DNA of 64,000 nucleotides from Geitlerinema sp. PCC 7407 (GTDB taxonomy: Bacteria; Cyanobacteriota; Cyanobacteriia; PCC-7407). Positions 4,428 to 33,069 of this stretch are shown in pieces. Positions within the stretch are counted from its first letter, which is position 1. Each line of letters starts with the position of its first letter. The notes beneath the pieces are model-generated. The model made no database searches. It had not been told where the DNA came from and saw only the letters and a program-made list of their open reading frames with translations. The stretch covers positions 2,096,501-2,160,500 of the forward strand of contig NC_019703.1 of assembly GCF_000317045.1 (NCBI RefSeq), read 5' to 3'. Position numbers and translations under genes: made by a program.

Positions 4428-4624
4428 AGATAGGAGGAAAACAATGAAAATTTCAAAAAATAGCCCAAAATGGCCGAAAAATTCTTCTTAAGCAGAGTGC
4501 ACTCCCCCTCAAGGTACACGCTGCGATCGCCGGATCTTTTCCCTCCACACATTCCTTTAAGGAGGCAAGTAAGGGCGCGAGGACGCGGGCTCTCTCTTTG
4601 TCATAAAGGCAGAGAGAGAGGCAA

Positions 4625-7600
4625 TCAGAAACTATTGCCAATGAGCGTGAAAGGCGCCCAGTAATAGGGATGCTGAAACGATGAGAGTTTGGGAGCCTCT
4701 GACGCGTCGCGCGCCTGGACTTGTAGACTCGATCGCTTCGCTGCTGTCACCAGCGCCGAGTCACTGCGCAACAGAGAAAGCTGAGCCTGCCGCAGGGCCT
4801 CCGCTTTTGTCATCGTCTCTGCGCCCGCAGGCTGCGCGAGGCGGTCATAAAAAAGCTGCATTAGCAGACTGGTACTGGCATCATTCACTGCCCACAGCGA
4901 TGCCATCACAGACTTGGCGCGGCCCTTTTCCAGGAAATAGGCGCTGATGCCTGCGATCTCGGTGCCGTCTGCGGCAGGTCCTCCCAGTGCCGTCTCACAG
5001 GCCGAGAGCACCACGAGGTGCACATCTCTCAGCTGACGGCCAATGGTGTTGATATCGGTAATTTTTAGCGGATCGCCATTGCCCAGGAGCAGATAGGAGG
5101 CTTCTGGCGCGCCGGGTTCAAACTTCGCGTGGGTGGCAATGTGGAGAACCCGGTGATCGCTGGCGCGATCGCGCATTGTCTCAAAGTCAAAGGCCTGATT
5201 CAAAAAGATCTCACCCGGATAGATCCCTTGGACATCTGCCGGATCTTGTCGGATCACGCCCTTCAGTTCACTCATAACATGGGGCAGCGGATTGAAGCCC
5301 GAGACTGCTTGCGACAGGCCCAGTCCCAGCACCGACGGTGGCTCAGCGCTCAGGCGATCGCGCGTATCTGTGAGCTCTGCTGAGAGGACCGTACTCACGG
5401 CGTAGTCCTCGATCAGGTAGCGATCGCCATCGTACAGCGCCGCCATCGGCAGATAGCGCGTCACCCGGTCCTGAGCAAACACCAAGTGCTGAATTTGGTT
5501 TTGCTGGATTTCCTTCGCTAGGGGCTCTATTAGCCACCCATAGAGCTGCTGTCCCTTGGCCTGAAGCTCTGGCAGCGACGACGCTTGCCCCGCTTGAATC
5601 AGCTCTCGGAACGCTAGCACCGTCTGACCAAGCTCCTCTTGGCTCACGGGCACCTCGATCTGGCCGACTACGCCTCCAGCACCGGTCCACAGCAGCCACA
5701 GCCGATCTTCGGTCACGAAAGGATAAATTAGCAGGGTTCCTGGCTGCGCCTCGACAATATCTCGCGCTGCATCACTGAGATAGCTCGGATCATTGAAATA
5801 CTGATCGCGATAGCGATTGTCTCTCACCTTTGCTTCGAAGGCTTTAACCTGCTCGTTATACTGAGCGACTAGAGATTCTTGCTGTCGATAGAGATCTTTG
5901 AGGGTGTCGCACTGGCTTTGTTCACAGGTATAGATCTTCTGGCCCAGCGCCACCAAGCTGCCGTGGTCGCTCACGATCTCTTGTTCGAGGGGCGTCATCT
6001 GAATCCCTTCGCTGGTCCAGGTTGCCCGAGTATCCCGAGAAAATTCTCGCAATTCCTCTAGCTTCAGCAGCTCCAAGACCTGCTGCGCTTCTCCCAGACG
6101 CCCCTGGGTAATCAGCAGATCTGCGAGGGACCGATAACGATCGCTCACGGTCTGTGTAAAAGACTCTTGCTCCTCGTGGGAGAGACTGCGCAGATCTTTG
6201 CGGATCTGCTCGGTGAGATTCACCGAGGTCTTGAGAAAGGCGATCGCCACCTCCGGCTGATCTGGCGCTACGAGATTTCCCAGCGAAGAAAGCGATCTGG
6301 CTTCATAGCCAGTTTCCTTGAGCTCACGGGCGATCGCCACCGACTGCCGCAGCGCTTCCTGGGCTTTTGCAGGCTGGTCGAGATCTTGATAGGTCAGCCC
6401 AAAAATATAGAGTGTCTCTTGGATATCCGATCGCAATCCAATTTTTTCTTGAATGGCCAGCGCCTCTTGCAACAGCGGCAATGCTTTTTCGGGACGTTTC
6501 TGCTTCTGATTAATATGGGCAATAACGCGCAACGTCCGACTTTCATTGGCGATCTCTCCTGCGCTCTGGCTATAGCGCAGCGCCTGCTGATAGTAGCCCA
6601 TCGCATCGTCATAGCGCTCTTGATTCAAGGCGATTGATCCCAAAGTAGCTAAACTCTGGATCTCCTTACGCTGATTTTTAATCTTTTGGCTGAGGGTGAG
6701 AGCTTGATTGGCGTAGTCCAAGGCGCGATCGTACTGCCCCAAGGAGCGATAGAGAAACGAGAGACTGAGCTGATCCCCAATCTCTTGTGAAACAGCGCCC
6801 ACCGATCGATGAATCTCCAAGGCTTCCTGTTGTAGCTTCAGCGCTCGAGCATACTGCGCCTGAGCCGCATAAAGGGAGGCAAGATTTCCCAGCGCAACGG
6901 CCTCTCCTCCTTTTTGGCCATTAGCCTGAGCAATTTCTAGAGATTGTTGAAGCTTTGTCTGCGCGTCTTCCGTACGTCCTTGGTCAGAATAAATTAAGCC
7001 TATATTGTTGAGGGGAGTAGCCAAGCTTTGTCCAGCCTCTTGAGCCAAGCCCTGGGCTTGTTGATGAAGCTCTAGAGCCCTTTGTAGGTCTCCCTGGTTA
7101 TGGAGCACGATTGCCCAGTTTCCTAAAATAGATGTTTCTAGGCGTTTTACCGGAATGCTGCGAGCTAGGTCTAGTGCCTGAGTATAGGCCTGGATGCCTT
7201 GAGGATACTGGCCGCGATCGCTATAAATTTGCCCTAGAGCGTTGAGGCTATGGGCCTGCTGCGCTTGATCTCCGACTGCCTTTGCCAGACTTATAGACTC
7301 ATGGGTGAGCGATAGAGCCTGCTCATACTGGCCCATATCGAGATACACTGCCCCCAAATTTTGGAGAGTTTTAGCTTGGTTGCGTCGATCGGCCTGCTCG
7401 CGCGCGATCGCAAGAGATTCTTCGTAGGCGCGGATCGCATTGGCATATTCGCCAACGTCATGATAGACAAGCGCAACATTATTCAGCAGTATGCTTTCTG
7501 CATAGCGAACTGAGCTCAAGCAGGATTTGCGGCCATACCCATCTACAGAGAAACCAGTACAGAGAGCGACTAAAGCATCTGGATCTCCGTCTTGAATGAG

Positions 7601-9628
7601 TTCAGTTCGTTTACGGTTGAGCTCTAGTACTTCTAAATAGGTCTCTAAGGCCTGAAGATGAAGCTCTCGATAGGTGTAGACGTTGCCGATATTCTGAAGG
7701 GAGGCAATTTCAAGCATCAAATCGCTGCCTCGGGCGAGCTCTAAGGCTTCTTGGAATGACGCGATCGCCTCATCATGGCGATTAGACGCCGTCAGCAATA
7801 ACCCCACCCGATTGAGGAGGAGACTTTTCTGCTTATTGTCTTGAATGTAGCGATCTTGAAACGGTAGAAGCGACTGAGCAATCTCAAGGGCCTTGTCCAC
7901 TTGATTTAGCTCGCGATAGACATCTGAGATGAACATGCGAGCCGCAAATTCTCCTGCGCGATCGCCTTGCTGCTCCGCGATCGCCAGAAATTCTTGATAG
8001 ACTTTCAGGGCCTCTTCCTGACGCTCATTATCTCGATAGGAGCTGGCCAAGCTGCCCAAAATTGTCTGCTTGTAGGCGGGCAGTTCCTCAGCCGGAAACC
8101 ACTCCTCGTTGGCTTCCAAAAATCTGATCGACGCCTGAAAGGCTTGCAGCGATTTTTCATGCAGGCTTTGGGTACTCCAGGCATGTCCCTGAGCCGTGTA
8201 GGTGTGGCTTATCCCTATGATGGCAGAGTATGCGAGGTCTTTTTGATTGTTTTTTTGAGCCTGAAGCAGAGCCTCTTGGAGGTACGGCAAAGCTTGGTTA
8301 TGGACTTCGATCGCCTCTAAAAATTGTCCTCGCTTAAATAAACTTTGGGCTTCGGTAACATAGGACTGCCCGATGCTCAGTGATGCTTGAGCTTGTTGCT
8401 TGGTATCCTCTAACGCTGTTACTGCGGCCTGATACTGGTGAAAGCGCTCTCGCCCTGCTGCGAACTGCCCATCCCAGATCAGCGCATATCCCCACAGACT
8501 CAGCACTTCTGCCTGGGCTGCGCGATCGCCCACCGCCCGAAATGTTGCCTCTGCCTGCTGAAAGGCGGCGATCGCCTCCGGATAGCGTTCTGCACTGGAA
8601 TAAGCGCTGCCTAGATTAAAGCTCAGCCAAGCAATGTCTTTGGAGGTGGCCGGATCGTCGAACTGCTGCCACGCCGTCAGCGATCGCTCCAAAGCGGCGA
8701 TCGCCTCATCGTAGCGCTTTTGGAAAGAGTGCAAGCGGCCAATCGATCGCAGCAGCGTTGCTTCGGTGCGCCGATCGTCCAGGGTTTCCGCCAGGACTAA
8801 TCCTTTTTGGTAAGCCTCTAGGGCGATCGCAGGATCGGATGCCTCGGTCAAAATCCCCTCTAGGAGAAAACCCGAAGCCATCAAAGGAGCGTGGTTGAGT
8901 TCTTGGGCCAGTGCTTGGGTTTTCGCCAAAGAGGCCTTGGCCTCGGTCGCAGCCTGAAGCTGAGAGTAGGCGCTGGTCTGCCACATATAGGCAATCGCCA
9001 AATAGTATTGCCGCTCGGGTACCTGCTCCGGCGACATCTCCAGCGCCTCTAGCTGCGCGATCGCCCCTCGCAAAGTCTCTAGGGCTTCTTTAGGATCGCC
9101 TTGCTTGACTTGGGCCACGCCCAGCCAACCTTGAACTCGCCCTTCTCGCAGGCGATCGCCCCGCGCTTGCCACACCGCCAGAGAAGGCTCGATCGCCGCG
9201 ATCGCCTCCGGGATCTGGTCTTGGCTCAGATAGGCCTCCGCTACCCACTGCTGGGCCTCCGCCACGCCCTCCTCATCTCCCAAGTCCTCGTAGATCGCCA
9301 ACCCCTTCTGGGCTAGCGCCAGCGCCTCTCCATAGTCTCCCTGCCACACGATCGCCTGCGACAACCCTAACAGCGCTGCGGCCTCCAGAGAGCGATCGCC
9401 GCCGCGTTTCGCCGCTGCCCGCACCTGCTCAAAGCCGCGCCGTGCTTCTGCTAGCTCCCCGCGATACAGGTGCGCAAAGCCTGTCTCTAGAGAGGAGGAG
9501 ATCTCCACCTGAGCGATCCAATGTCTCGAAGCCTCAGTCCGCTGCGCCGATGCCTCAGCCGGCAGCAGCAATCCAGCACTTCCCAGCAGCAGTACACACC
9601 ATGACACATCCAGAAGACGAGGGGGCAT
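4625..9628 (-). CDS. secreted TPR-CHAT protein, 1,667 aa
   Basis: The protein starts with a signal peptide (about residues 1-29, ending in AEASAQ). More than 1,000 residues of tetratricopeptide repeats follow, and it ends in a CHAT domain, a caspase-like peptidase fold. CHAT landmarks are HIATHAKFEP with the likely catalytic His at about 1500, and LSACETALGG with the likely catalytic Cys at about 1544, then ASLWAVND. The ATG at 9628 was chosen because AGGAG lies eight bases upstream; a GTG three codons earlier is weaker. TPRs probably bind a partner that controls the CHAT domain. The next gene downstream encodes a caspase, so the two may act in one proteolytic pathway; that is inference. Confidence 0.9.
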   Translation of the reverse strand: MPPRLLDVSWCVLLLGSAGLLLPAEASAQRTEASRHWIAQVEISSSLETGFAHLYRGELAEARRGFEQVRAAAKRGGDRSLEAAALLGLSQAIVWQGDYGEALALAQKGLAIYEDLGDEEGVAEAQQWVAEAYLSQDQIPEAIAAIEPSLAVWQARGDRLREGRVQGWLGVAQVKQGDPKEALETLRGAIAQLEALEMSPEQVPERQYYLAIAYMWQTSAYSQLQAATEAKASLAKTQALAQELNHAPLMASGFLLEGILTEASDPAIALEAYQKGLVLAETLDDRRTEATLLRSIGRLHSFQKRYDEAIAALERSLTAWQQFDDPATSKDIAWLSFNLGSAYSSAERYPEAIAAFQQAEATFRAVGDRAAQAEVLSLWGYALIWDGQFAAGRERFHQYQAAVTALEDTKQQAQASLSIGQSYVTEAQSLFKRGQFLEAIEVHNQALPYLQEALLQAQKNNQKDLAYSAIIGISHTYTAQGHAWSTQSLHEKSLQAFQASIRFLEANEEWFPAEELPAYKQTILGSLASSYRDNERQEEALKVYQEFLAIAEQQGDRAGEFAARMFISDVYRELNQVDKALEIAQSLLPFQDRYIQDNKQKSLLLNRVGLLLTASNRHDEAIASFQEALELARGSDLMLEIASLQNIGNVYTYRELHLQALETYLEVLELNRKRTELIQDGDPDALVALCTGFSVDGYGRKSCLSSVRYAESILLNNVALVYHDVGEYANAIRAYEESLAIAREQADRRNQAKTLQNLGAVYLDMGQYEQALSLTHESISLAKAVGDQAQQAHSLNALGQIYSDRGQYPQGIQAYTQALDLARSIPVKRLETSILGNWAIVLHNQGDLQRALELHQQAQGLAQEAGQSLATPLNNIGLIYSDQGRTEDAQTKLQQSLEIAQANGQKGGEAVALGNLASLYAAQAQYARALKLQQEALEIHRSVGAVSQEIGDQLSLSFLYRSLGQYDRALDYANQALTLSQKIKNQRKEIQSLATLGSIALNQERYDDAMGYYQQALRYSQSAGEIANESRTLRVIAHINQKQKRPEKALPLLQEALAIQEKIGLRSDIQETLYIFGLTYQDLDQPAKAQEALRQSVAIARELKETGYEARSLSSLGNLVAPDQPEVAIAFLKTSVNLTEQIRKDLRSLSHEEQESFTQTVSDRYRSLADLLITQGRLGEAQQVLELLKLEELREFSRDTRATWTSEGIQMTPLEQEIVSDHGSLVALGQKIYTCEQSQCDTLKDLYRQQESLVAQYNEQVKAFEAKVRDNRYRDQYFNDPSYLSDAARDIVEAQPGTLLIYPFVTEDRLWLLWTGAGGVVGQIEVPVSQEELGQTVLAFRELIQAGQASSLPELQAKGQQLYGWLIEPLAKEIQQNQIQHLVFAQDRVTRYLPMAALYDGDRYLIEDYAVSTVLSAELTDTRDRLSAEPPSVLGLGLSQAVSGFNPLPHVMSELKGVIRQDPADVQGIYPGEIFLNQAFDFETMRDRASDHRVLHIATHAKFEPGAPEASYLLLGNGDPLKITDINTIGRQLRDVHLVVLSACETALGGPAADGTEIAGISAYFLEKGRAKSVMASLWAVNDASTSLLMQLFYDRLAQPAGAETMTKAEALRQAQLSLLRSDSALVTAAKRSSLQVQARDASEAPKLSSFQHPYYWAPFTLIGNSF

Positions 9629-9985
9629 CGTCAACACTCCTGATTGAAACTATCCAAGATGCCTATCTAGTTCCGCTGCTCAACGTAACCAGAGACTACG
9701 AAAATTCGATCGCAAAGAATTTTCAGAGGCAACCTATCTGATTGAAACATTCAGATGAATTCTAATTTCGTATGCCTTGGAAAAAATCTACTGATTGCTC
9801 AAGCGATCGCCTGGGCCGGACAAAACTTGACCTAGCTATAGAGCCTTGTACACTGTTCAATCATCCCTAAAAAAATCCCTCTTTCATTGTTTGTCCGAGC
9901 TTGATCAGAAAAACAATAAAAGAGGGAAAATCGTAATTTAAATGAAAAAGAATCTGGCGAGATTCTTATCTCTGCGCTCTACTCC
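9629..9985. other. intergenic region, TPR-CHAT 5' end to PEP-CTERM gene
   Basis: This 357-base stretch holds the presumed promoter of the TPR-CHAT gene and, at its other end, the strong terminator of the PEP-CTERM gene. I see no additional gene in it. Confidence 0.6.
9868..9930 (-). terminator. rho-independent terminator of the PEP-CTERM gene
   Basis: A 17-base stem (9876-9892 against 9911-9927, one mismatch) closes an 18-base loop. Read on the minus strand it is followed by a run of seven T residues, as expected for termination of the gene ending at 9986. Confidence 0.75.
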
Positions 9986-13368: not shown

Positions 13369-13665
13369 GTGAGCATATTGAAGAAGCGAAGCATAATCAT
13401 TTGCCAATATCGTTCTTGCGAACGGAACGGAGCCAATAAAATATTAGAAGCCTTTAATGCAGTAGACTTACCAAACGTAACAGTTGAAGGGAGTGACTGC
13501 ATGGGGCAATGTAGTGCGGGCCCGAACGTTCGAGTGGTGCCGGATCGAGTATGGTATTGTCGCGTAACAATCGACGACGTTAGTCGAATTATCGAGGAGC
13601 ATCTTAAATCTGACAATCCGATTAAGGATTTAATGCATCCTCGCTTTCATGGATTTGTGGATTGA
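13369..13665 (+). CDS. thioredoxin-like [2Fe-2S] ferredoxin, 98 aa
   Basis: This small iron-sulfur protein has the thioredoxin-like ferredoxin pattern: C12 and C17 (CQYRSC), then C44 and C48 (DCMGQC). These four cysteines would bind one [2Fe-2S] cluster for electron transfer; the partner is unknown. The start is a GTG at 13369. The codons from about residue 81 onward, from base 13611, lie inside the left arm of the giant palindrome, so the last 18 codons are duplicated in inverted orientation at 19715-19769. The gene itself looks intact. Confidence 0.82.
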   Translation: MSILKKRSIIICQYRSCERNGANKILEAFNAVDLPNVTVEGSDCMGQCSAGPNVRVVPDRVWYCRVTIDDVSRIIEEHLKSDNPIKDLMHPRFHGFVD

Positions 13666-13752
13666 GTGTTTAAGTGTTTGCGATCGAGTTGAGTTGTGGC
13701 TAGGGATGGGTTTTTATCGCATCCACTCTATCTCATCCCATCGCTCAATATC

Positions 13753-16383
13753 TCATCTTATTAATTCATTCAGTTCAATAATTTCTGCAATTTTTTCCAA
13801 ATTAGGATGTCTGCGATTATGCCTCGAGCCAATTTCATGTTGTTCGTGGTGTTTTTCTAGCTCCGTTTTCAGCTCATCAAAGACAGCAGCAACGTGTTTT
13901 TGATTAGCGCTCAACCCATGAGTTCTCAGGAGAGTTTGAACAACAGGGAAAGAGATATACCACTTATCATTGAAAGCCCGCCCCTCTTGGCTGTTAAGAG
14001 AAATAAGAGCCTGGACTGCCCGTCGAATATGATGTAGAGCCTCCTTTTCTGGGATGCGTTTCTTTGGGGACTTTGGCGAATCAGAAACATCCACCGAAGA
14101 TCGAGTTAAAGCAGGAGCGATCGCAGACTCAACCGGCCGCATCATCCGGTCGTCAACCGCTTGCTCTTGCTCCAGCTCTTGCTCTTGTCCTTGCTCCAGT
14201 TCTTGCTCTTTTTCATCCTGAAACGCATCCGTAAGCGATTCCGTTCCCAATAAGAGTTGTCTAAAAGCTTGAAGCTTCCTCCTTGCCTCATCGCACTCCT
14301 GCTTGAGCCGTTGGTTTTCAAGCCGTAGCGCCTCCCCTTGAGCAGAGACTTGTACCTGCCGTACCTGAGCGATCGCCTCATCTCGCTCCAGCTTCAGCGT
14401 TTCCACCAGTTGTTCCAGAGCTTCCATACGCTCTGTCAGCCAAGCGAGAGTTCGAGCCTGGTCCCTAATCGCAGCGATCGCCCCATCATCCGGGAGAAAC
14501 TGAGACGTAGTCCTCGTGACAGCGTAGGATTGCCCCTGAGCAAGCTGCTCTAGTATTTGTCCCAGAGCAGCCTCATAGCTCAGTCCCCCCGCTCCTCCAC
14601 GACCGCGGACCTGAATATTAAAAGAAGCTGCAACCGTTTTCAGAAGGTCAGGGTCAACAGAGAGCATCTTACGCCGATGTCGCACCTTAGGTTTAGCCTC
14701 CAAACGAGATGACATTTCTGTTGAAGATAGAGCATTAGCCCCTTCAGCCGCCGTAATTGGTTCATCCATCATCGTTGCTCCCTCTTCCGCCGCCGCTGCC
14801 TTCCGCCTCCTCAACACCTCCAGTACCTGGACATTGTGTTGTCCCAACTTGAGCCCTCGGCCATCCCTATCGGCCATAAAACCTGCCGTTCCACTTGCCT
14901 GGATCGCCCCCAGAAACGTCCCTTTCTCAACCTCAAGCGGACAGAACCAGTAAATAGCGATCGCCGAATACAACGCCCTCAAATCTGATACCGACTGCAG
15001 AAGCACCAAATCATCGAAAGTGCGCTCACACACCTTCCTAATCGCCGTACCCATCTCTTCTTCTGGCAGCGGCTCTAATTTCTGCCACCTCTGCCAAGCA
15101 GTGACCACCTGCCTAGCTCCCATGAGCGTTGGCACTTCCAGTCCATCAACCAGAATAGAGAACCCCGACTTCTCCTCCAACCGCTGCCCCATCAACGATT
15201 GAATCGTTCGGCCCGTCAGCAATATCAAACCCGTCACCGCCTCTGCCCACCCTTGAGCAAAGAGGAGTCGATCACCCGCACGGTAAATTAGAGCATTAAC
15301 AGTTTCTAGCTTCAATGATTTGCTGGACACCGCCGCGCCATGGTCGTTCTGATTGGTTGCTTTTTCTGGTTGAAACACCTCTAACACCTCCACCCCTGGC
15401 AAACCCAACTTTACTCCTGACTCTCCAGCAACCCGATCTCGAATAAGATAATCATCATAGTTTTGTCGAGCTGAATAGTTTGGAATTTTCTGCCCATTAG
15501 TAGTCAATTTGAAATGCCCTTGGATTTCCGCCTTAAATCGATGATCGGGCACCCAATCAGGCTTGTAATAGTACGTAGCAATTTCCGCATACACCGCTCG
15601 AAACAAATGGGTATAGAGTCGTTTACCATCGTCTGTTTCCGCCTTCCGCCCTGGCACCAAATCAGCGAAGTGCTGACGACAAGCATGAGGCACCCCAGAG
15701 TATCGGGCATTAATGCGACGTTTGAGATGACTTTCTGGCAGATTAAGTGCCCTCAGATCTCTAATATTCCAAACCTCTTGCAGATGAGTGATAGCCTCCA
15801 GCACTCGATGAGCGGGAGCCAGTGTAGGAATTTCAAATTCAATTTCTATCTCGTCGCGGCGTTTGACTGCCGTGCAAAACAACAGACTGTAAGCAGTTTT
15901 TGATTTGAACTTAGAAATAAGAATTTCACTAATACGGCGACCGACCAATACTGCTAGCCCGGCCGCTACCTCGTTAGGTTTCTCACTACCTAGCAGCGCG
16001 ATCGCCTTTTCTACTAATTCATTGGCTTGTTGAATAGAAAATAAATTATTGGCACGAGTATTGAGACGATTTGCCTGTTCATTATTTAACTGAGTGTAAA
16101 CATCAGAAGGCAGCAGGATAAACGGAATAACTGGATGATTTGGGGTAAAAACTCTAAGAGCATTAGCGACATCGGTGCGCCGATTTTTCTGTTGCTCTGG
16201 CGTAGTAAGCTTTTTTTCTTCAAACAAGAGGTCAATTTGGTTTGCCCAGTTGGAAGCAGTTTCTTGCCATTCTGGAGATTCTGTAGTTAAGCTCCACACC
16301 TGAGGTAGTAAGTTTGTTAATGCTTGCTCAAGCCAGCATGTTTTTGCTTGGGCCGCTGCTTGACGGATAAGAAATGTATTCAT
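13753..16383 (-). CDS. telomere resolvase (protelomerase), left copy, 876 aa
   Basis: This protein resembles protelomerases such as TelN, TelK and TelA, tyrosine-recombinase relatives that cut a replicated telomere junction and seal each half into a hairpin. Catalytic-domain landmarks: GLAVLVGRRISEIL (R149), TAVKRRDE (K174), FEIPTLAPAHRVLEAI, FRAVYAEIA (R262), EIQGH (H290) and NYDDYLI (Y309, candidate nucleophile). Residues about 360-530 repeat the same fold in decayed form. A coiled coil (about 640-740) and a basic C-terminal domain (about 775-876) follow. At 876 residues it is longer than TelA (about 440) or TelN (about 630). It is transcribed away from the palindrome centre, starting 307 bases from it. 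Several HIP1 octamers inside it suggest long residence in cyanobacterial DNA. Confidence 0.85.
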   Translation of the reverse strand: MNTFLIRQAAAQAKTCWLEQALTNLLPQVWSLTTESPEWQETASNWANQIDLLFEEKKLTTPEQQKNRRTDVANALRVFTPNHPVIPFILLPSDVYTQLNNEQANRLNTRANNLFSIQQANELVEKAIALLGSEKPNEVAAGLAVLVGRRISEILISKFKSKTAYSLLFCTAVKRRDEIEIEFEIPTLAPAHRVLEAITHLQEVWNIRDLRALNLPESHLKRRINARYSGVPHACRQHFADLVPGRKAETDDGKRLYTHLFRAVYAEIATYYYKPDWVPDHRFKAEIQGHFKLTTNGQKIPNYSARQNYDDYLIRDRVAGESGVKLGLPGVEVLEVFQPEKATNQNDHGAAVSSKSLKLETVNALIYRAGDRLLFAQGWAEAVTGLILLTGRTIQSLMGQRLEEKSGFSILVDGLEVPTLMGARQVVTAWQRWQKLEPLPEEEMGTAIRKVCERTFDDLVLLQSVSDLRALYSAIAIYWFCPLEVEKGTFLGAIQASGTAGFMADRDGRGLKLGQHNVQVLEVLRRRKAAAAEEGATMMDEPITAAEGANALSSTEMSSRLEAKPKVRHRRKMLSVDPDLLKTVAASFNIQVRGRGGAGGLSYEAALGQILEQLAQGQSYAVTRTTSQFLPDDGAIAAIRDQARTLAWLTERMEALEQLVETLKLERDEAIAQVRQVQVSAQGEALRLENQRLKQECDEARRKLQAFRQLLLGTESLTDAFQDEKEQELEQGQEQELEQEQAVDDRMMRPVESAIAPALTRSSVDVSDSPKSPKKRIPEKEALHHIRRAVQALISLNSQEGRAFNDKWYISFPVVQTLLRTHGLSANQKHVAAVFDELKTELEKHHEQHEIGSRHNRRHPNLEKIAEIIELNELIR

Positions 16384-16419
16384 AGAAAAAATAAACCTAT
16401 TTCTATAAAAAATATCGAT

Positions 16420-16442
16420 ATGAAATAAATTTCTTATTTCAT
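16420..16442 (-). promoter_or_regulatory. dyad in left resolvase leader
   Basis: This is the mirror image of the dyad at 16938-16960: two 9-base half sites (ATGAAATAA) separated by five bases, ending 37 bases upstream of the left resolvase start. A 10-base palindrome, ATATCGATAT, sits beside it. It could be an operator for autoregulation or an accessory resolvase site. Confidence 0.4.
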
Positions 16443-16937
16443 CTTCCTGATTTGTAAGCGATTACATAGATACGGTTTTATCTCTGACTTCATCTGAAGG
16501 AATTCACTCTTATTGTAGTTCTTTGCTCTAGTCTATTATATGTTGCTGCAAGTAAATACTACTGCTATAGTCCTTTCCAGGACGGCTTAAATAACTTATT
16601 TAATATTGATGTAAAATAAGTATAAAACTAGATCAATAAAATATTGAGATTTTTATTAATTGAGTTCTTTTTCTAATAAGTTTATTATCAGATAATAAAC
16701 TTATTAGAAAAAGAACTCAATTAATAAAAATCTCAATATTTTATTGATCTAGTTTTATACTTATTTTACATCAATATTAAATAAGTTATTTAAGCCGTCC
16801 TGGAAAGGACTATAGCAGTAGTATTTACTTGCAGCAACATATAATAGACTAGAGCAAAGAACTACAATAAGAGTGAATTCCTTCAGATGAAGTCAGAGAT
16901 AAAACCGTATCTATGTAATCGCTTACAAATCAGGAAG

Positions 16938-16960
16938 ATGAAATAAGAAATTTATTTCAT
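16938..16960 (+). promoter_or_regulatory. dyad in right resolvase leader
   Basis: ATGAAATAA and its complement TTATTTCAT are separated by GAAAT, ending 36 bases before the ATG. The palindrome ATATCGATAT (16959-16968) overlaps its right end. This could be an operator or a resolvase contact site. It is mirrored at 16420-16442. Confidence 0.4.
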
Positions 16961-16996
16961 ATCGATATTTTTTATAGAAATAGGTTTATTTTTTCT

Positions 16997-19627
16997 ATGA
17001 ATACATTTCTTATCCGTCAAGCAGCGGCCCAAGCAAAAACATGCTGGCTTGAGCAAGCATTAACAAACTTACTACCTCAGGTGTGGAGCTTAACTACAGA
17101 ATCTCCAGAATGGCAAGAAACTGCTTCCAACTGGGCAAACCAAATTGACCTCTTGTTTGAAGAAAAAAAGCTTACTACGCCAGAGCAACAGAAAAATCGG
17201 CGCACCGATGTCGCTAATGCTCTTAGAGTTTTTACCCCAAATCATCCAGTTATTCCGTTTATCCTGCTGCCTTCTGATGTTTACACTCAGTTAAATAATG
17301 AACAGGCAAATCGTCTCAATACTCGTGCCAATAATTTATTTTCTATTCAACAAGCCAATGAATTAGTAGAAAAGGCGATCGCGCTGCTAGGTAGTGAGAA
17401 ACCTAACGAGGTAGCGGCCGGGCTAGCAGTATTGGTCGGTCGCCGTATTAGTGAAATTCTTATTTCTAAGTTCAAATCAAAAACTGCTTACAGTCTGTTG
17501 TTTTGCACGGCAGTCAAACGCCGCGACGAGATAGAAATTGAATTTGAAATTCCTACACTGGCTCCCGCTCATCGAGTGCTGGAGGCTATCACTCATCTGC
17601 AAGAGGTTTGGAATATTAGAGATCTGAGGGCACTTAATCTGCCAGAAAGTCATCTCAAACGTCGCATTAATGCCCGATACTCTGGGGTGCCTCATGCTTG
17701 TCGTCAGCACTTCGCTGATTTGGTGCCAGGGCGGAAGGCGGAAACAGACGATGGTAAACGACTCTATACCCATTTGTTTCGAGCGGTGTATGCGGAAATT
17801 GCTACGTACTATTACAAGCCTGATTGGGTGCCCGATCATCGATTTAAGGCGGAAATCCAAGGGCATTTCAAATTGACTACTAATGGGCAGAAAATTCCAA
17901 ACTATTCAGCTCGACAAAACTATGATGATTATCTTATTCGAGATCGGGTTGCTGGAGAGTCAGGAGTAAAGTTGGGTTTGCCAGGGGTGGAGGTGTTAGA
18001 GGTGTTTCAACCAGAAAAAGCAACCAATCAGAACGACCATGGCGCGGCGGTGTCCAGCAAATCATTGAAGCTAGAAACTGTTAATGCTCTAATTTACCGT
18101 GCGGGTGATCGACTCCTCTTTGCTCAAGGGTGGGCAGAGGCGGTGACGGGTTTGATATTGCTGACGGGCCGAACGATTCAATCGTTGATGGGGCAGCGGT
18201 TGGAGGAGAAGTCGGGGTTCTCTATTCTGGTTGATGGACTGGAAGTGCCAACGCTCATGGGAGCTAGGCAGGTGGTCACTGCTTGGCAGAGGTGGCAGAA
18301 ATTAGAGCCGCTGCCAGAAGAAGAGATGGGTACGGCGATTAGGAAGGTGTGTGAGCGCACTTTCGATGATTTGGTGCTTCTGCAGTCGGTATCAGATTTG
18401 AGGGCGTTGTATTCGGCGATCGCTATTTACTGGTTCTGTCCGCTTGAGGTTGAGAAAGGGACGTTTCTGGGGGCGATCCAGGCAAGTGGAACGGCAGGTT
18501 TTATGGCCGATAGGGATGGCCGAGGGCTCAAGTTGGGACAACACAATGTCCAGGTACTGGAGGTGTTGAGGAGGCGGAAGGCAGCGGCGGCGGAAGAGGG
18601 AGCAACGATGATGGATGAACCAATTACGGCGGCTGAAGGGGCTAATGCTCTATCTTCAACAGAAATGTCATCTCGTTTGGAGGCTAAACCTAAGGTGCGA
18701 CATCGGCGTAAGATGCTCTCTGTTGACCCTGACCTTCTGAAAACGGTTGCAGCTTCTTTTAATATTCAGGTCCGCGGTCGTGGAGGAGCGGGGGGACTGA
18801 GCTATGAGGCTGCTCTGGGACAAATACTAGAGCAGCTTGCTCAGGGGCAATCCTACGCTGTCACGAGGACTACGTCTCAGTTTCTCCCGGATGATGGGGC
18901 GATCGCTGCGATTAGGGACCAGGCTCGAACTCTCGCTTGGCTGACAGAGCGTATGGAAGCTCTGGAACAACTGGTGGAAACGCTGAAGCTGGAGCGAGAT
19001 GAGGCGATCGCTCAGGTACGGCAGGTACAAGTCTCTGCTCAAGGGGAGGCGCTACGGCTTGAAAACCAACGGCTCAAGCAGGAGTGCGATGAGGCAAGGA
19101 GGAAGCTTCAAGCTTTTAGACAACTCTTATTGGGAACGGAATCGCTTACGGATGCGTTTCAGGATGAAAAAGAGCAAGAACTGGAGCAAGGACAAGAGCA
19201 AGAGCTGGAGCAAGAGCAAGCGGTTGACGACCGGATGATGCGGCCGGTTGAGTCTGCGATCGCTCCTGCTTTAACTCGATCTTCGGTGGATGTTTCTGAT
19301 TCGCCAAAGTCCCCAAAGAAACGCATCCCAGAAAAGGAGGCTCTACATCATATTCGACGGGCAGTCCAGGCTCTTATTTCTCTTAACAGCCAAGAGGGGC
19401 GGGCTTTCAATGATAAGTGGTATATCTCTTTCCCTGTTGTTCAAACTCTCCTGAGAACTCATGGGTTGAGCGCTAATCAAAAACACGTTGCTGCTGTCTT
19501 TGATGAGCTGAAAACGGAGCTAGAAAAACACCACGAACAACATGAAATTGGCTCGAGGCATAATCGCAGACATCCTAATTTGGAAAAAATTGCAGAAATT
19601 ATTGAACTGAATGAATTAATAAGATGA
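16997..19627 (+). CDS. telomere resolvase (protelomerase), right copy, 876 aa
   Basis: It is identical in sequence to the left copy: catalytic R149, K174, R262, H290 and Y309 in the first domain. In the second domain (about 360-530), R392 and R469 remain, but the lysine hairpin is deleted, the His position reads S497, and no tyrosine follows. Shared flanking motifs (VKLGLPGVEVLEV at 324-336, LKLGQHNVQVLEV at 511-523) show that the second domain is a tandem duplicate. The start at 16997 has only a weak AGG 12 bases upstream. Two identical, divergent copies suggest one gene per telomere. An ordinary integrase is less likely because the Arg-Lys-Arg-His-Tyr spacing and the YAEIA helix follow protelomerases. 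Confidence 0.85.
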   Translation: MNTFLIRQAAAQAKTCWLEQALTNLLPQVWSLTTESPEWQETASNWANQIDLLFEEKKLTTPEQQKNRRTDVANALRVFTPNHPVIPFILLPSDVYTQLNNEQANRLNTRANNLFSIQQANELVEKAIALLGSEKPNEVAAGLAVLVGRRISEILISKFKSKTAYSLLFCTAVKRRDEIEIEFEIPTLAPAHRVLEAITHLQEVWNIRDLRALNLPESHLKRRINARYSGVPHACRQHFADLVPGRKAETDDGKRLYTHLFRAVYAEIATYYYKPDWVPDHRFKAEIQGHFKLTTNGQKIPNYSARQNYDDYLIRDRVAGESGVKLGLPGVEVLEVFQPEKATNQNDHGAAVSSKSLKLETVNALIYRAGDRLLFAQGWAEAVTGLILLTGRTIQSLMGQRLEEKSGFSILVDGLEVPTLMGARQVVTAWQRWQKLEPLPEEEMGTAIRKVCERTFDDLVLLQSVSDLRALYSAIAIYWFCPLEVEKGTFLGAIQASGTAGFMADRDGRGLKLGQHNVQVLEVLRRRKAAAAEEGATMMDEPITAAEGANALSSTEMSSRLEAKPKVRHRRKMLSVDPDLLKTVAASFNIQVRGRGGAGGLSYEAALGQILEQLAQGQSYAVTRTTSQFLPDDGAIAAIRDQARTLAWLTERMEALEQLVETLKLERDEAIAQVRQVQVSAQGEALRLENQRLKQECDEARRKLQAFRQLLLGTESLTDAFQDEKEQELEQGQEQELEQEQAVDDRMMRPVESAIAPALTRSSVDVSDSPKSPKKRIPEKEALHHIRRAVQALISLNSQEGRAFNDKWYISFPVVQTLLRTHGLSANQKHVAAVFDELKTELEKHHEQHEIGSRHNRRHPNLEKIAEIIELNELIR

Positions 19628-19714
19628 GATATTGAGCGATGGGATGAGATAGAGTGGATGCGATAAAAACCCATCCCTAGCCACAACTCAACTCGATCGC
19701 AAACACTTAAACAC

Positions 19715-19769
19715 TCAATCCACAAATCCATGAAAGCGAGGATGCATTAAATCCTTAATCGGATTGTCA
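19715..19769 (-). pseudogene. 3' stub of the [2Fe-2S] ferredoxin gene
   Basis: This is an inverted copy of the last 18 codons of the ferredoxin gene at 13369-13665, carried along in the right palindrome arm. It has no start, no cysteines and cannot be functional. It marks how far the inverted copying ran past the resolvase gene. Confidence 0.85.
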
Positions 19770-19863: not shown

Positions 19864-21606
19864 CTATAAGACCTCTTCAGACGGGGGAAGATCAGCCTCT
19901 GGAAGCGCTGGCTCGGGAAATGCCTCGACAGGAGCCGGCTCAGGTTCTTCTGGTATTGCCTCGGGTTCTGGTAGAGGCTCAGGAATCGGTTCGGGTTCGG
20001 GCATAGGTTCAGGAATGGGTTCAGGAATGGGTTCAGGAATGGGTTCAGGAATGGGTTCGGGGAGTAGTGGTTCTGACTCAGGTACTGGTTCGACCTCTGG
20101 AAGCGGTTCGGGTTGCGGCTCAGGTTGTGGAATCGGCTCTGGTTCGCTGGGCTCTGAGGTAGGTATCGGTTCCTCAATTGCGGGGGTCGGCGTGGTTTCT
20201 GGGGTCGGCGTGGCTGACGGTGTTTCTGGCGCAGGTGCATCATTGCTGGGCGGTGCAACTGGCTCGGGAGCTGGGTCAGTTGCGGTTTCTGCGGGCTCTG
20301 GGGGCGCAGACTCGGCAGTGGTCGGAGTTGGGATCTCGACAGAACGGCGCTCACCGCGCTCCCGGGCGGCGCGGTTGCGTTCAGAGCCCTCGATGTTGAG
20401 GTCGTACTCGATGGGGACACTGGCTCCACCTTCGACAGGTTGAAAGCGCGATCGCTGGGCTGCTTCGATGGCGGCGCGATCGATAGCAGCATTGCCGCTG
20501 GAGCGGGTCAGGACAACGCTGCGAACGCTTCCATCCGCGTTGATCTCGACGTTGACGAGAGGCTGACCTTCGATGCCTGCTTCGACAGCGCTTTCGGGGT
20601 ACTCTGGCTCGACACAGTCTTCACAAGCGACGGTCCGCGAACCGCCCCCGCGAGTTTCTTGGCCAGCACCAGAGCTGGGGCGATCGCCAGTGCCATTGCC
20701 CGAACTAGTGTTTGTGTTGCCGGGGCGAGTGCCGGAACCTGCAGCGGTCACTGTGCCGGAACCTCCGGGAGCGTCGCCTTGGCCATTCCCACTTTCGGAG
20801 CGGCTGGCATTCGCAGCAGTGCTTGAACCTTGAGCAGTGGCACTTTGAGCAGCGGGTCCAGGACGAGCGGCGCTGGTCTCGCGATCGCGCAATCCCCGCA
20901 AGAACGACCGCAGGCGATCGCGCTGGGAAGGGTCAGGCGCTGTCGCTGCAACCCGAGGCTCTTCAGGCGCTTCTGGTTGAGACTCTGCGGGCGCTGCGGG
21001 CGTTTTGGGGGCTTCGGGCTCTGGCTTGGGAGGCTCTGTGACCTCGGATGCCGCTTGAGTTTCAGCTGCTGCCTCGGGCTCTTCGAGCGGCGTTTCTTCA
21101 GCGATTTCTTCGACGGGTTCTGGCTCGGGGGCTGCCGGTTCAGCTACATCCTCCGGCACAGGAGGCTCAGGGAGGGCTTCAGCAACCTCTGGCTCCTCAG
21201 GGAGGGGGGCAGCTTCGGGCTCCGAAGCTGGGGCAGCAGGCTCTGAAGTCGCCACGGGCACAATGTCGGCGGCGGGAGCAGCGTCAAGGGCGACAGCACT
21301 AGCGTCTGAGGCTGGGGCTGCGTCTAGGCTAGGAACTTCAGGGTCGAAAGTCTCGCTGCCCAGTTCGGCAGGCTCAAGGGGTTCCTCTGGGGGAGGCTCG
21401 GGGAGCACAGGCTCAGTGGGTTCCGCCACGATGATCTCCAGAGGCGTGATCTCGGCGGTGACGGGTCGCTGCCAGATCCCCAGATAGCTGAGAGCAAATG
21501 CGACCAAGTGGACCCCCACAGAGCCCAGAAGTCCCCAAAGTATTACCTTTCGCAGAGCGGCTTGCTCTCGATCGTGCTGCTGTGCGCAAACCTCTGAAAG
21601 ACTCAT
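19864..21606 (-). CDS. tonB: TonB-family energy transducer with internal C-terminal-type domain and Pro/Glu tail
   Basis: TonB couples the proton motive force, via ExbB-ExbD, to outer-membrane transporters. The 580-residue protein has one membrane anchor (about 20-42) and a long Pro/Glu/Ala-rich periplasmic spacer (50-220). A Gly/Ser/Asn-rich stretch (255-325) and a TonB domain (about 327-405: [19 protein letters not shown], then [16 protein letters not shown]) follow. Unusually, another 175 residues of Pro/Glu-rich sequence follow the TonB domain, including PEPI tandem units near 516-534. It diverges from the exbB operon, and a Fur-like box lies 49-63 bases upstream of its start. Confidence 0.86.
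20005..20060. repeat. 12-bp tandem repeats within tonB
   Basis: About four near-perfect 12-base units (AGGAATGGGTTC) encode the EPIP/EPMP repeats in the TonB C-terminal tail. This is coding low-complexity sequence, prone to length change by slippage. Confidence 0.8.
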
Positions 21607-30601: not shown

Positions 30602-31618
30602 CTATTCGCCACCATAGACTTCTCCCGTCACTTTGCCTCGGAAGACAATGTAGTTATAGATGTTGTAGAACAACATGATCGGGATGAGAAAGCCGATGAA
30701 AATGATCATGAAGACCAGCGCGCTAGGGGCTGCCGCTGCCTGGTAAATGGTCACCGACGGCGGAATGATGTAGGGAAACACAATCATTCCAAGACCAATG
30801 AAGGTGAGCAAAAAGATCAAAATCGTCCAGACAAAGGGCGTTCTCTCTTCTGCTCGGCTGAGGCTGCGCAACAGGAGACCAACCAGGAAGATTCCCAAAA
30901 CAGGAATGGCGGCAAAGAGATAGACAAGGGGCTCCTGAAACAGGCGCGATCGCGCGCTTTCATAGAAAATCGGCGTCGTGATCGTGATGAAAATTGCCCC
31001 CACCAAGGTGGTCCAGGCCGCGATCTTCGCGGTTCGGTAGTGGGTCTTTTGGAGCTCTCCTTCCGTTTTCAAAATGAGATAGGTCGAGCCAATCAAGACA
31101 TAGCCCTGGATCAAAGTGAGAGCAACCAAGAAACTCTGCAAGGTCAGCCAGTCCCAGGTCCCCCCCACAAAGTGGCCTTCGGCATCTACGGGGATACCGG
31201 CAATCACAGAGCCCAAGGCAAATCCCTGGCCCAAGGCCGCCAAAAAGCTGCCTGCCCCAAAGGCCACATTCCAGAAGTATTTGCGGCGGGCGTGCTCTCG
31301 AAACTCGAAGGCGACGGCCCGAAAAATCAGACCAAAAATCATCACCCAAATGGGCACATAGAGGGCGTGGAGAATGGTGGCGTAGGCCAAAGGAAAAGCC
31401 CCAAACAGCGCCCCGCCCATCAGCACCAGCCACGTCTCGTTGGCGTCCCACACATTGCCAAGACTGGTCATCAAAATGCTGCGGCGCTCCTCAGAGGAGG
31501 CCGTGAGAGAGAGAATGCCCACGCCTAGGTCAAAGCCATCTAGCATGACGTAGAGCAGCAGAAAGAGCGCCAGAATGACGAACCAAACCTGGGGCAAAAA
31601 GTGTAAAAGGGCGTCCAT
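30602..31618 (-). CDS. cydB: cytochrome bd ubiquinol oxidase subunit II
   Basis: CydB is the second core subunit of the bd-type quinol oxidase, which reduces oxygen using plastoquinol or ubiquinol. The 338-residue protein has about eight or nine membrane helices and family segments LYVMLDGFDLGVG, GNVWDANETWLVLMGGALFGAFP and a long C-terminal helix. It starts only eight bases after cydA, with AGGA upstream, so the two are co-transcribed and translated together. Confidence 0.94.
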   Translation of the reverse strand: MDALLHFLPQVWFVILALFLLLYVMLDGFDLGVGILSLTASSEERRSILMTSLGNVWDANETWLVLMGGALFGAFPLAYATILHALYVPIWVMIFGLIFRAVAFEFREHARRKYFWNVAFGAGSFLAALGQGFALGSVIAGIPVDAEGHFVGGTWDWLTLQSFLVALTLIQGYVLIGSTYLILKTEGELQKTHYRTAKIAAWTTLVGAIFITITTPIFYESARSRLFQEPLVYLFAAIPVLGIFLVGLLLRSLSRAEERTPFVWTILIFLLTFIGLGMIVFPYIIPPSVTIYQAAAAPSALVFMIIFIGFLIPIMLFYNIYNYIVFRGKVTGEVYGGE

Positions 31619-31626
31619 ACAGTCTC

Positions 31627-33069
31627 CTATTGCTGCGCTTCGAGGGGTCGGTGATCGGGCTCGTGGGTCGCCGGCGCGGTCTCCACGGCGGGCTGATCTT
31701 CGAGGCCCGGCACCGGCAGGGTGAGGTTTGGCCCCTTGCGCAGGATGCGGCTACCAAAGTAGAGCGTGGAGACAAACAGAACGCTATAGATGACTGCAAA
31801 ACTCGTCAGAGATCCCAGGACGGTGGAGGCAGGCAGGTTGGAGACAGCGTCCACGGTGCGAATCTGGCCATAGACGGTCCACGGCTGACGGCCAACGCAG
31901 CGCACGATCCAGCCAGACTCCACGGCGATATACCCCAGGGGCGCGGCCAAGATCCAGCCGCGCAGGAGCCACTTTTGGCGGGCGATCGCCTCCGGCGCGA
32001 GCTTGCCGCGCAGCCACTGCACCACGCTGACGCCCATCAGCGCTGCGAAGAAAAAGCCAATGGCGATCATGATCCGGAAGGCGTAATAAATTAGCGGAAT
32101 CATCCGGGGCTGCTCTTCGGGCTGGAAGGCGCGCAGGCCCGGCACATCGTGGGAGAGAGTCGGCTTGAACTCCAAGATATAGCCGAGGGCCTGGGGAATG
32201 CTGATCTCCCAGTCGTTGCGCTGCTCACCCTGATTGGGCAGGGCGATCAAGCTCCAGTCTGCGGTTTCTCCGGCGAGGCTGGTCTCCCACTTCGCCTCCA
32301 TGGCGGCGAGCTTGGTGGGCTGATAGCGGGCGACCTGTTCGCCGCTGAGGTGACCGATATAGATCTGGAGCGGCGCAACGGCGATCGCAGCGGCCAGGAC
32401 AATTTTGAGAGATTTGGCAAAAAAGGCCGAATGGCGATCGTTTAGGATATACCACGCGCTGATGCCGCCAATCACAAACAGCGAAGTCTCCAGCGTGGCA
32501 AAAAACATATGCAGCACGCTGTTGAGCATAAAGGGATTCAAAATCGCCTGGAAATAGTCAGAGACCACGAACTTCCCATTCACCATCTCACCGCCAGCGG
32601 GGGTTTGCATCCAGGAGTTGGCCGCCAAAATCCAGAAGGTGGAGAGGTTGGCCCCAAAGGCCACCATGATGGTCGAAAAATAGTGAATGACGGGATGCAC
32701 GCGGCCCCAGCCAAACAGCATAATCCCCAGAAACCCTGCCTCCAGCATGAAGGCCATGGCTCCCTCAAAGCCAAGAATACTGCCAAAAAAGTCGCCAACC
32801 GCTTCGGAGAAGGGAGCCCAGTTAGTGCCAAACTGAAACTCCATGGGCAGCCCAGAGGCAACGCCCACGCCAAAATTAAGCACGTAGAGCTTGGCCCAAA
32901 ACCGCGCATGGCGGTAGTAGTCCGGGTTTTGGGTCTTGAGCCAGAGGCCTTCGATAATGACTAGATAGATCGCCATGCCGGTACTCAGCACGGGCCACAG
33001 CATGTGAAAAATTGCCGTTAGCGCGAATTGCATTCGCGATAGGGCGAGGGTGTTGGATAACAGTTCCAT
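31627..33069 (-). CDS. cydA: cytochrome bd ubiquinol oxidase subunit I
   Basis: CydA carries the b558, b595 and d haems and the quinol site. The 480-residue protein shows the N-terminal haem ligand region (FHMLWPVLSTG, H22), EFQFGTNWAPFSEAVGDFFG, HYFSTIMVAFGANLSTFWILAANSWMQ split over a helix pair, and a GRQPWTVYGQIRT motif near the end. The Q-loop looks short. In cyanobacteria this oxidase usually serves thylakoid or plasma-membrane respiration and protects against over-reduction. Confidence 0.94.
   Translation of the reverse strand: MELLSNTLALSRMQFALTAIFHMLWPVLSTGMAIYLVIIEGLWLKTQNPDYYRHARFWAKLYVLNFGVGVASGLPMEFQFGTNWAPFSEAVGDFFGSILGFEGAMAFMLEAGFLGIMLFGWGRVHPVIHYFSTIMVAFGANLSTFWILAANSWMQTPAGGEMVNGKFVVSDYFQAILNPFMLNSVLHMFFATLETSLFVIGGISAWYILNDRHSAFFAKSLKIVLAAAIAVAPLQIYIGHLSGEQVARYQPTKLAAMEAKWETSLAGETADWSLIALPNQGEQRNDWEISIPQALGYILEFKPTLSHDVPGLRAFQPEEQPRMIPLIYYAFRIMIAIGFFFAALMGVSVVQWLRGKLAPEAIARQKWLLRGWILAAPLGYIAVESGWIVRCVGRQPWTVYGQIRTVDAVSNLPASTVLGSLTSFAVIYSVLFVSTLYFGSRILRKGPNLTLPVPGLEDQPAVETAPATHEPDHRPLEAQQ

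Follow-up and report, generated by a model that had tools for sequence, protein, structure and literature searches.

A perfect palindrome in the genome of the cyanobacterium Geitlerinema sp. PCC 7407 very probably represents, as its likeliest reading, the fused hairpin telomeres of a main chromosome that is linear and bears a 3.1-kb inverted repeat at either end. We favour this reading because the palindrome is perfect, the resolvase encoded in it has an intact active site, its core is shared, its arrangement recurs in other genomes and it lies at the switch in GC skew. It was found in a stretch of 64,000 nucleotides, hereafter the window, for which a first-pass annotation had proposed the joined ends of a linear replicon with identical terminal inverted repeats. 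Sequence comparisons lend support to this proposal through the identity of the enzyme, the presence of the core at the ends of a linear plasmid (NIES-4102 plasmid2), the mirror palindromes and palindromic contig ends found elsewhere, and the position opposite dnaA.

Structure of the palindrome and its flanks

An inverted-repeat search over 10-24 kb of the window returned exactly one long pair, whose two arms of 3,079 nt each are reverse complements (100% complementary) separated by a 1-nt spacer, A16690 (Table 1). The next-longest palindromic arm within the 64-kb window has 17 nt, and the 3,079-nt palindrome is therefore not a product of chance. Each resolvase gene points its start codon to the palindrome centre from a distance of 307 bp, and a whole-genome search of the single contig of 4,681,111 bp found these two copies, both in the palindrome, and no third. 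The first-pass description of 3,079-base arms mirrored round A16690, each with an identical 876-residue protelomerase-like gene, was borne out with zero mismatches between the arms.

Table 1. Coordinates of the palindrome and of the neighbouring genes in the window.
Feature	Position	Strand	Basis
Ferredoxin-like gene, intact, 98 aa, starting in the left flank and ending in the left arm	13369..13665	+	
Left arm, putative left-end inverted repeat of the proposed linear chromosome	13611..16689	.	Inverted-repeat search
Telomere resolvase gene (predicted), left copy, 876 aa, start codon towards the telomere, 307 bp off	13753..16383	-	
Putative telomere core TATTATC-A-GATAATA, odd-centred palindrome round A16690	16683..16697	.	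ATTATC-A-GATAAT common to both ends of AP018283.1
Right arm, putative right-end inverted repeat, matching the left arm exactly as its reverse complement	16691..19769	.	Inverted-repeat search
Telomere resolvase gene (predicted), right copy, identical, 876 aa	16997..19627	+	
Ferredoxin-like remnant, residues about 80-98, at the inner edge of the right arm; putative copying junction 19769/19770	19715..19769	-	
tonB-like gene, unique right flank	19864..21606	-	
NB-ARC gene; homologue adjoins the resolvase gene in G006:C9	26569..28188	+	
cydB-cydA (cytochrome bd); homologues adjoin the resolvase gene in G006:C9, order and orientation kept	30602..33069	-	

The outer flanks had been described as different, with ferredoxin on one side and tonB on the other. 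The tonB side is indeed unique, but the ferredoxin-like gene does not lie wholly outside the palindrome: it runs from a GTG start at 13369 to a stop at 13665, and its last 18 codons (55 bp) are within the left arm. Ferredoxin homologues align as far as residues 94-97 of 98, and the 3′ tail hence belongs to the gene. Since the right end has no more than the tail of a gene that is complete on the left, the left end is the older one; it would therefore have been copied to the right end, probably through recombination of the two.

Both flanks hold ordinary chromosomal genes (malic enzyme, tonB/exbB, cydAB), and nothing recognisable as a plasmid backbone gene lies between flanks and arms. In another genome, G006, the resolvase gene is flanked by NB-ARC and cydB-cydA genes, as in the right flank of the window, and the resolvase gene has therefore probably long been resident in this cyd/NB-ARC chromosomal neighbourhood. 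The left flank also carries, at 2220-9637, adjacent genes for a caspase-domain protein (735 aa) and a TPR-CHAT protein (1,670 aa). Such pairs are often tied to cell-death or defence functions.

Position on the chromosome

The gene dnaA is found at base 382 of 4,681,111 and the palindrome at 2,113,190. GC skew was taken from 20-kb stretches sampled along the chromosome, and its best two-segment split falls at 2.10-2.18 Mb (left mean +0.017, right mean -0.007, p 2e-4). The skew is weak, and the terminus of a circular chromosome would give the same switch. The palindrome is thus placed opposite dnaA, at the GC-skew switch, a position that fits chromosome ends.

The encoded enzyme

Domain match, profile hits, catalytic residues and predicted fold all identify the 876-aa protein as a putative telomere resolvase, which upholds its first designation as protelomerase-like. 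The Pfam family ResT-TelK_cat (PF16684) matches residues 120-296 (E 4.5e-34, 118 bits for a cut-off of 27). Searching the PDB with a profile of nine cyanobacterial relatives retrieved TelA (2.3e-29), TelK (1.9e-22) and ResT (8.2e-9), and nothing beyond these three at E 0.01. When the predicted fold (pLDDT 75) was submitted to Foldseek, ranks 1-8 were occupied by TelA, TelK and ResT (E 2.6e-8 to 5.9e-4), with Cre appearing from rank 9. The match to the NCBIfam equivalog for TelA of Agrobacterium (NF052462) reaches 43.6 bits, below the cut-off of 800; judged by sequence, the protein is a relative of TelA, not TelA itself.

The active catalytic domain spans about residues 72-345 and contains R149, K174, H259, R262, H290 and Y309, all invariant across 18 homologues. 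The catalytic residues of TelA are Arg255, Lys286, Arg366, His394 and Tyr405 (PMC3558466), the first four of which align with R149, K174, R262 and H290, while Y309 was assigned as the equivalent of Y405 by its position after the GH motif. The position of TelA Tyr363 is occupied here by a histidine (H259). The catalytic domain recurs at about residues 355-535 (blastp of domain versus domain, E 5e-11), in a copy that lacks equivalents of K174, H259, H290 and Y309 and is hence degenerate. A coiled coil (about residues 633-740) and a C-terminal domain (about 778-876) follow.

Besides the window enzyme, the clade with two such domains comprises those of G024, G006, G072 (Pantanalinema sp. GBBB05) and G182. 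A scan of genome contigs with the single protein gave no relatives and an alignment-based scan gave 15; enzymes of the family are present in 95 of the 390 cyanobacterial genomes sampled. A scan of IMG/VR yielded no relatives, leaving a phage origin unsupported, and PHROG has two families, both of unknown function, that match the catalytic part. Several proteins (L015/L022, at G023:C1 about 3701370-3702390, as well as L010, L011 and L021) contain the C-terminal part of the resolvase (about 563-872) with no full catalytic domain recognised, and are possible telomere-binding or partition partners.

The telomere core and the ends of linear plasmids

The 15-mer TATTATCWGATAATA (TATTATC-A-GATAATA) occurs in 2 of 390 cyanobacterial genomes, once here, at the palindrome centre, and once in G352. 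The latter genome is not among the resolvase carriers listed, and its copy was rejected as a telomere and regarded as an ordinary, unrelated short site. Plasmid2 of Chondrocystis sp. NIES-4102 (AP018283.1), deposited as linear, carries ATTATC-A-GATAAT 95 bp inside both record ends, and beyond the tip its record continues for 94 bp as reverse complement; this record reads through the putative hairpin. Both ends of the plasmid are identical over all 2,500 bases compared, and it encodes a relative of the resolvase (39% identity over the catalytic part). In plasmid3, from the same strain, one end shows TATATC-A-GATATA. A palindromic target of the replicated-telomere type is accordingly seen in the window, as a perfect palindrome with a core shared with linear plasmid ends, to which binding of the enzyme is putative.

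We compared seven elements of the odd type, reading outward from the centre. TC-[A/T]-GA is central in all of them, except that the contig of G024 breaks off immediately ahead of this motif. In G052, G053 and G088, contigs bearing a resolvase gene terminate within odd TC[A/T]GA palindromes. In the sister clade (G117, G094, G179 and Gloeocapsa PCC 7428) the palindromes are even-centred, and odd and even telomere centres split onto the two sides of a fully supported branch of the enzyme tree. This tracking of centre type with enzyme clade is the strongest sign that the palindrome centres would be the substrates of the resolvases.

No terminal palindromes were found at the record ends of PCC 7822, pLBX, pLBY and NIES-3755, and a palindrome in G003 (L032, centre GCTGAGC) was set aside, its centre not being TCNGA. 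A linear plasmid of L. boryana NIES-2135 (553,673 bp) and a plasmid of IU 594 labelled circular (553,597 bp) begin with the same sequence. Being near-equal in size and opposite in label, these two show that the topology labels of such replicons are unreliable. Outside the cyanobacteria, a 51-kb plasmid of Xanthobacter dioxanivorans labelled circular (NZ_CP063365.1) encodes a protelomerase family protein, and its topology may deserve a check. The linear plasmid of Gloeocapsa PCC 7428 has a CBASS-type defence operon near its protelomerase gene, towards one end (L225 6002-10229).

Mirror arrangements in other genomes

Two mirrored resolvase genes are also found in a perfect palindrome of G117:C1, with 14,465-bp arms and distinct flanks, in a palindrome of G094:C54 with 8,741-bp arms, and in a palindrome of G293:C72, where 4,116-bp arms surround an N scaffold gap. 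In G094:C54 the left arm reaches the contig start, as expected if the assembler reads round a hairpin. G144:C241 has a resolvase gene at both ends.

A further argument for our reading comes from G024:C1, a single contig of 5,458,034 bp with dnaA at 48% of its length and a resolvase gene 8 kb from its right end, facing that end; the contig end is GTATTATC. Its first 77 bases are an inverted repeat of a stretch 5 kb from the right end, which we read as a 5-kb terminal repeat that may have been assembled once; the GC skew, which has no clear switch at the contig ends, gives this no confirmation. From about 4.64 to 5.21 Mb (G024:C1 4641000-5207000) the sampled skew is negative where the opposite sign would be expected, a hint of a large inversion close to that end. 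Between this resolvase gene and the right contig end lie Tn7-like genes (TnsB-, TnsC- and TniQ-like by translation; L023 15142-18276), degenerate inverted relatives of which stand at the left end of the contig (L024 452-4249); subtelomeres may be landing sites for Tn7-like transposons. Within the double-domain clade a full palindrome is seen only in the window, and none was present near the gene in the stretches read of G006, G072 and G182, where at least 17 kb separates the resolvase gene from the contig end towards which its start codon points; this counts against our reading, as does the lack of a clear skew switch at the ends of G024.

Discussion

In the model that we propose, we infer that the chromosome is linear in the cell, as well as the chemistry of cleavage, the length of the stagger and the history of the assembly. 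Each chromosome end would be a covalently closed hairpin with its tip at the centre of TATTATC-A/T-GATAATA, and each tip would be followed by the identical 3.1-kb terminal inverted repeat with a resolvase gene about 0.3 kb away. Bidirectional replication from a dnaA-proximal origin would copy round the hairpins and produce a circular head-to-head dimer, whose telomere junctions would be the palindrome seen in the window. By analogy with TelA, a resolvase dimer may cut both strands, staggered round the centre, through Y309 phosphotyrosines, and the cut strands would then fold back and the breaks be resealed as two hairpins. The TelA crossover has a 6-nt self-complementary overhang (PMC3558466), and the odd centre found here is a counterpoint to our reading. 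Indeed, an odd centre could not yield a symmetric 6-nt overhang, and a 5- or 7-nt stagger leaving one unpaired A or T at the tip would be expected. An assembler unable to separate the identical arms would have joined left flank, hairpin and right flank as one continuous chromosome.

That the deposited assembly runs as one continuous contig through the palindrome speaks against a linear chromosome and for a true internal palindrome of a circular one, namely the relic of a linear-plasmid telomere, or a captured one, integrated at the terminus and no longer resolved. The relatives of the enzyme are mostly plasmid-borne and the terminus is a common landing region, both in keeping with such an event; yet with both enzyme copies intact and the core perfect the site should be cut, and a 6-kb perfect palindrome with a 1-nt spacer would be expected to be unstable, as such structures generally are in replicating cells. 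Furthermore, G006, which belongs to another family, keeps NB-ARC and cydBA beside the gene, a sign of long chromosomal residence, and the absence of recognised plasmid backbone genes between flanks and arms also argues against capture. We consider an internal palindrome unlikely.

Full identity of the arms would also be expected had the assembler used the consensus of one arm twice, the palindrome then being an assembly artefact without hairpin telomeres in which a chimeric or foldback read doubled one arm. A foldback would lead back into its own flank, but the second arm here breaks off within the ferredoxin copy and enters a different flank; the centre, moreover, equals the ends of independent linear plasmid records, and its odd or even character follows enzyme phylogeny, making such an artefact extremely improbable. 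The frequency of family resolvases on linear plasmids could, on the other hand, suggest that the hairpin telomeres belong to a separate linear replicon, joined by mistake into a circular chromosome. This is highly improbable for a genome that is a single contig, in which malic enzyme, tonB/exbB and cydAB genes flank the palindrome and the GC-skew split falls upon it. The fused telomeres of a linear main chromosome are the reading that we retain.

Hairpin-ended linear bacterial chromosomes are known from few lineages. If our reading is true, a cyanobacterial chromosome that looks complete and unbroken is in fact linear, and its signature (mirror resolvase genes and palindromic contig ends) can find more, given the share of sampled genomes that carry such an enzyme (95 of 390). 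The split of odd and even centres along the enzyme phylogeny would give a direct handle on the measurement of resolvase stagger and on tip folding, and the dead second domain a natural experiment in the building of resolvase dimers. We give even chances to a wider proposal, that of a cyanobacterial main-chromosome hairpin system in which the telomere is odd-centred, the stagger measures 5 or 7 nt, the resolvase pairs a live catalytic domain with a dead one, and the terminal repeat of every end bears the gene for it, an architecture common to at least one other lineage (G024) and missed as assemblies were circularised through the palindrome.

The first-pass annotation regarded such a system as not known to be described, a view that is correct in part. 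Cyanobacterial hairpin telomeres have received a passing mention of one word (PMC3558466), the linear Cyanothece 51142 chromosome has been reported (PMC4674748), and protelomerase linear plasmids were already known, several deposited linear cyanobacterial plasmid records being annotated with a 'protelomerase family protein'. On the other hand, our search, which covered the open literature, found no description of a linear cyanobacterial main chromosome, an odd-centred telomere, a double-domain enzyme or a resolvase gene in each terminal repeat; the first three look new.

Comparison with known systems

TelA of the Agrobacterium linear chromid offers a parallel in being a resolvase of the tyrosine-recombinase type with the same catalytic domain and residues (R255, K286, R366, H394, Y405; PMC3558466), and in having as target the palindromic replicated telomere of a chromosome-size replicon, a role that the palindrome described here would share. 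The two differ in several respects. Telomeres of the TelA/TelK type are even, with a 6-nt self-complementary centre, whereas those of the window and its clade are odd (TC-A-GA) and those of the sister clade even. The window enzyme has His (H259) for TelA Y363 and twice the length of TelA; its second catalytic domain is degenerate, and its C-terminal region includes a coiled coil. Unlike the TelA system, the window also carries the resolvase gene twice, once per terminal repeat. Borrelia ResT and phage TelN/TelK resemble the window enzyme in catalytic fold (ResT 8.2e-9, TelK 1.9e-22) and in the hairpin-end strategy, but are distant in sequence, have other accessory domains and act in other hosts.

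Among cyanobacteria, Cyanothece ATCC 51142 has a linear chromosome of 430 kb (PMC4674748), likewise a linear chromosome-like element; it is, however, a second element beside a circular main chromosome, and its description makes no mention of telomeres or of a resolvase. The same enzyme family is found on linear plasmids, namely NIES-4102 plasmids 2 and 3, Leptolyngbya boryana pLBX/pLBY, Gloeocapsa PCC 7428 pGLO7428.02 and Gloeothece PCC 7822 Cy782202, which differ in not being a dnaA-bearing chromosome and in having shorter enzymes. NIES-4102 plasmid2 shares the 13-bp telomere core and likewise has identical terminal repeats, but its resolvase gene is central, outside the terminal repeat.
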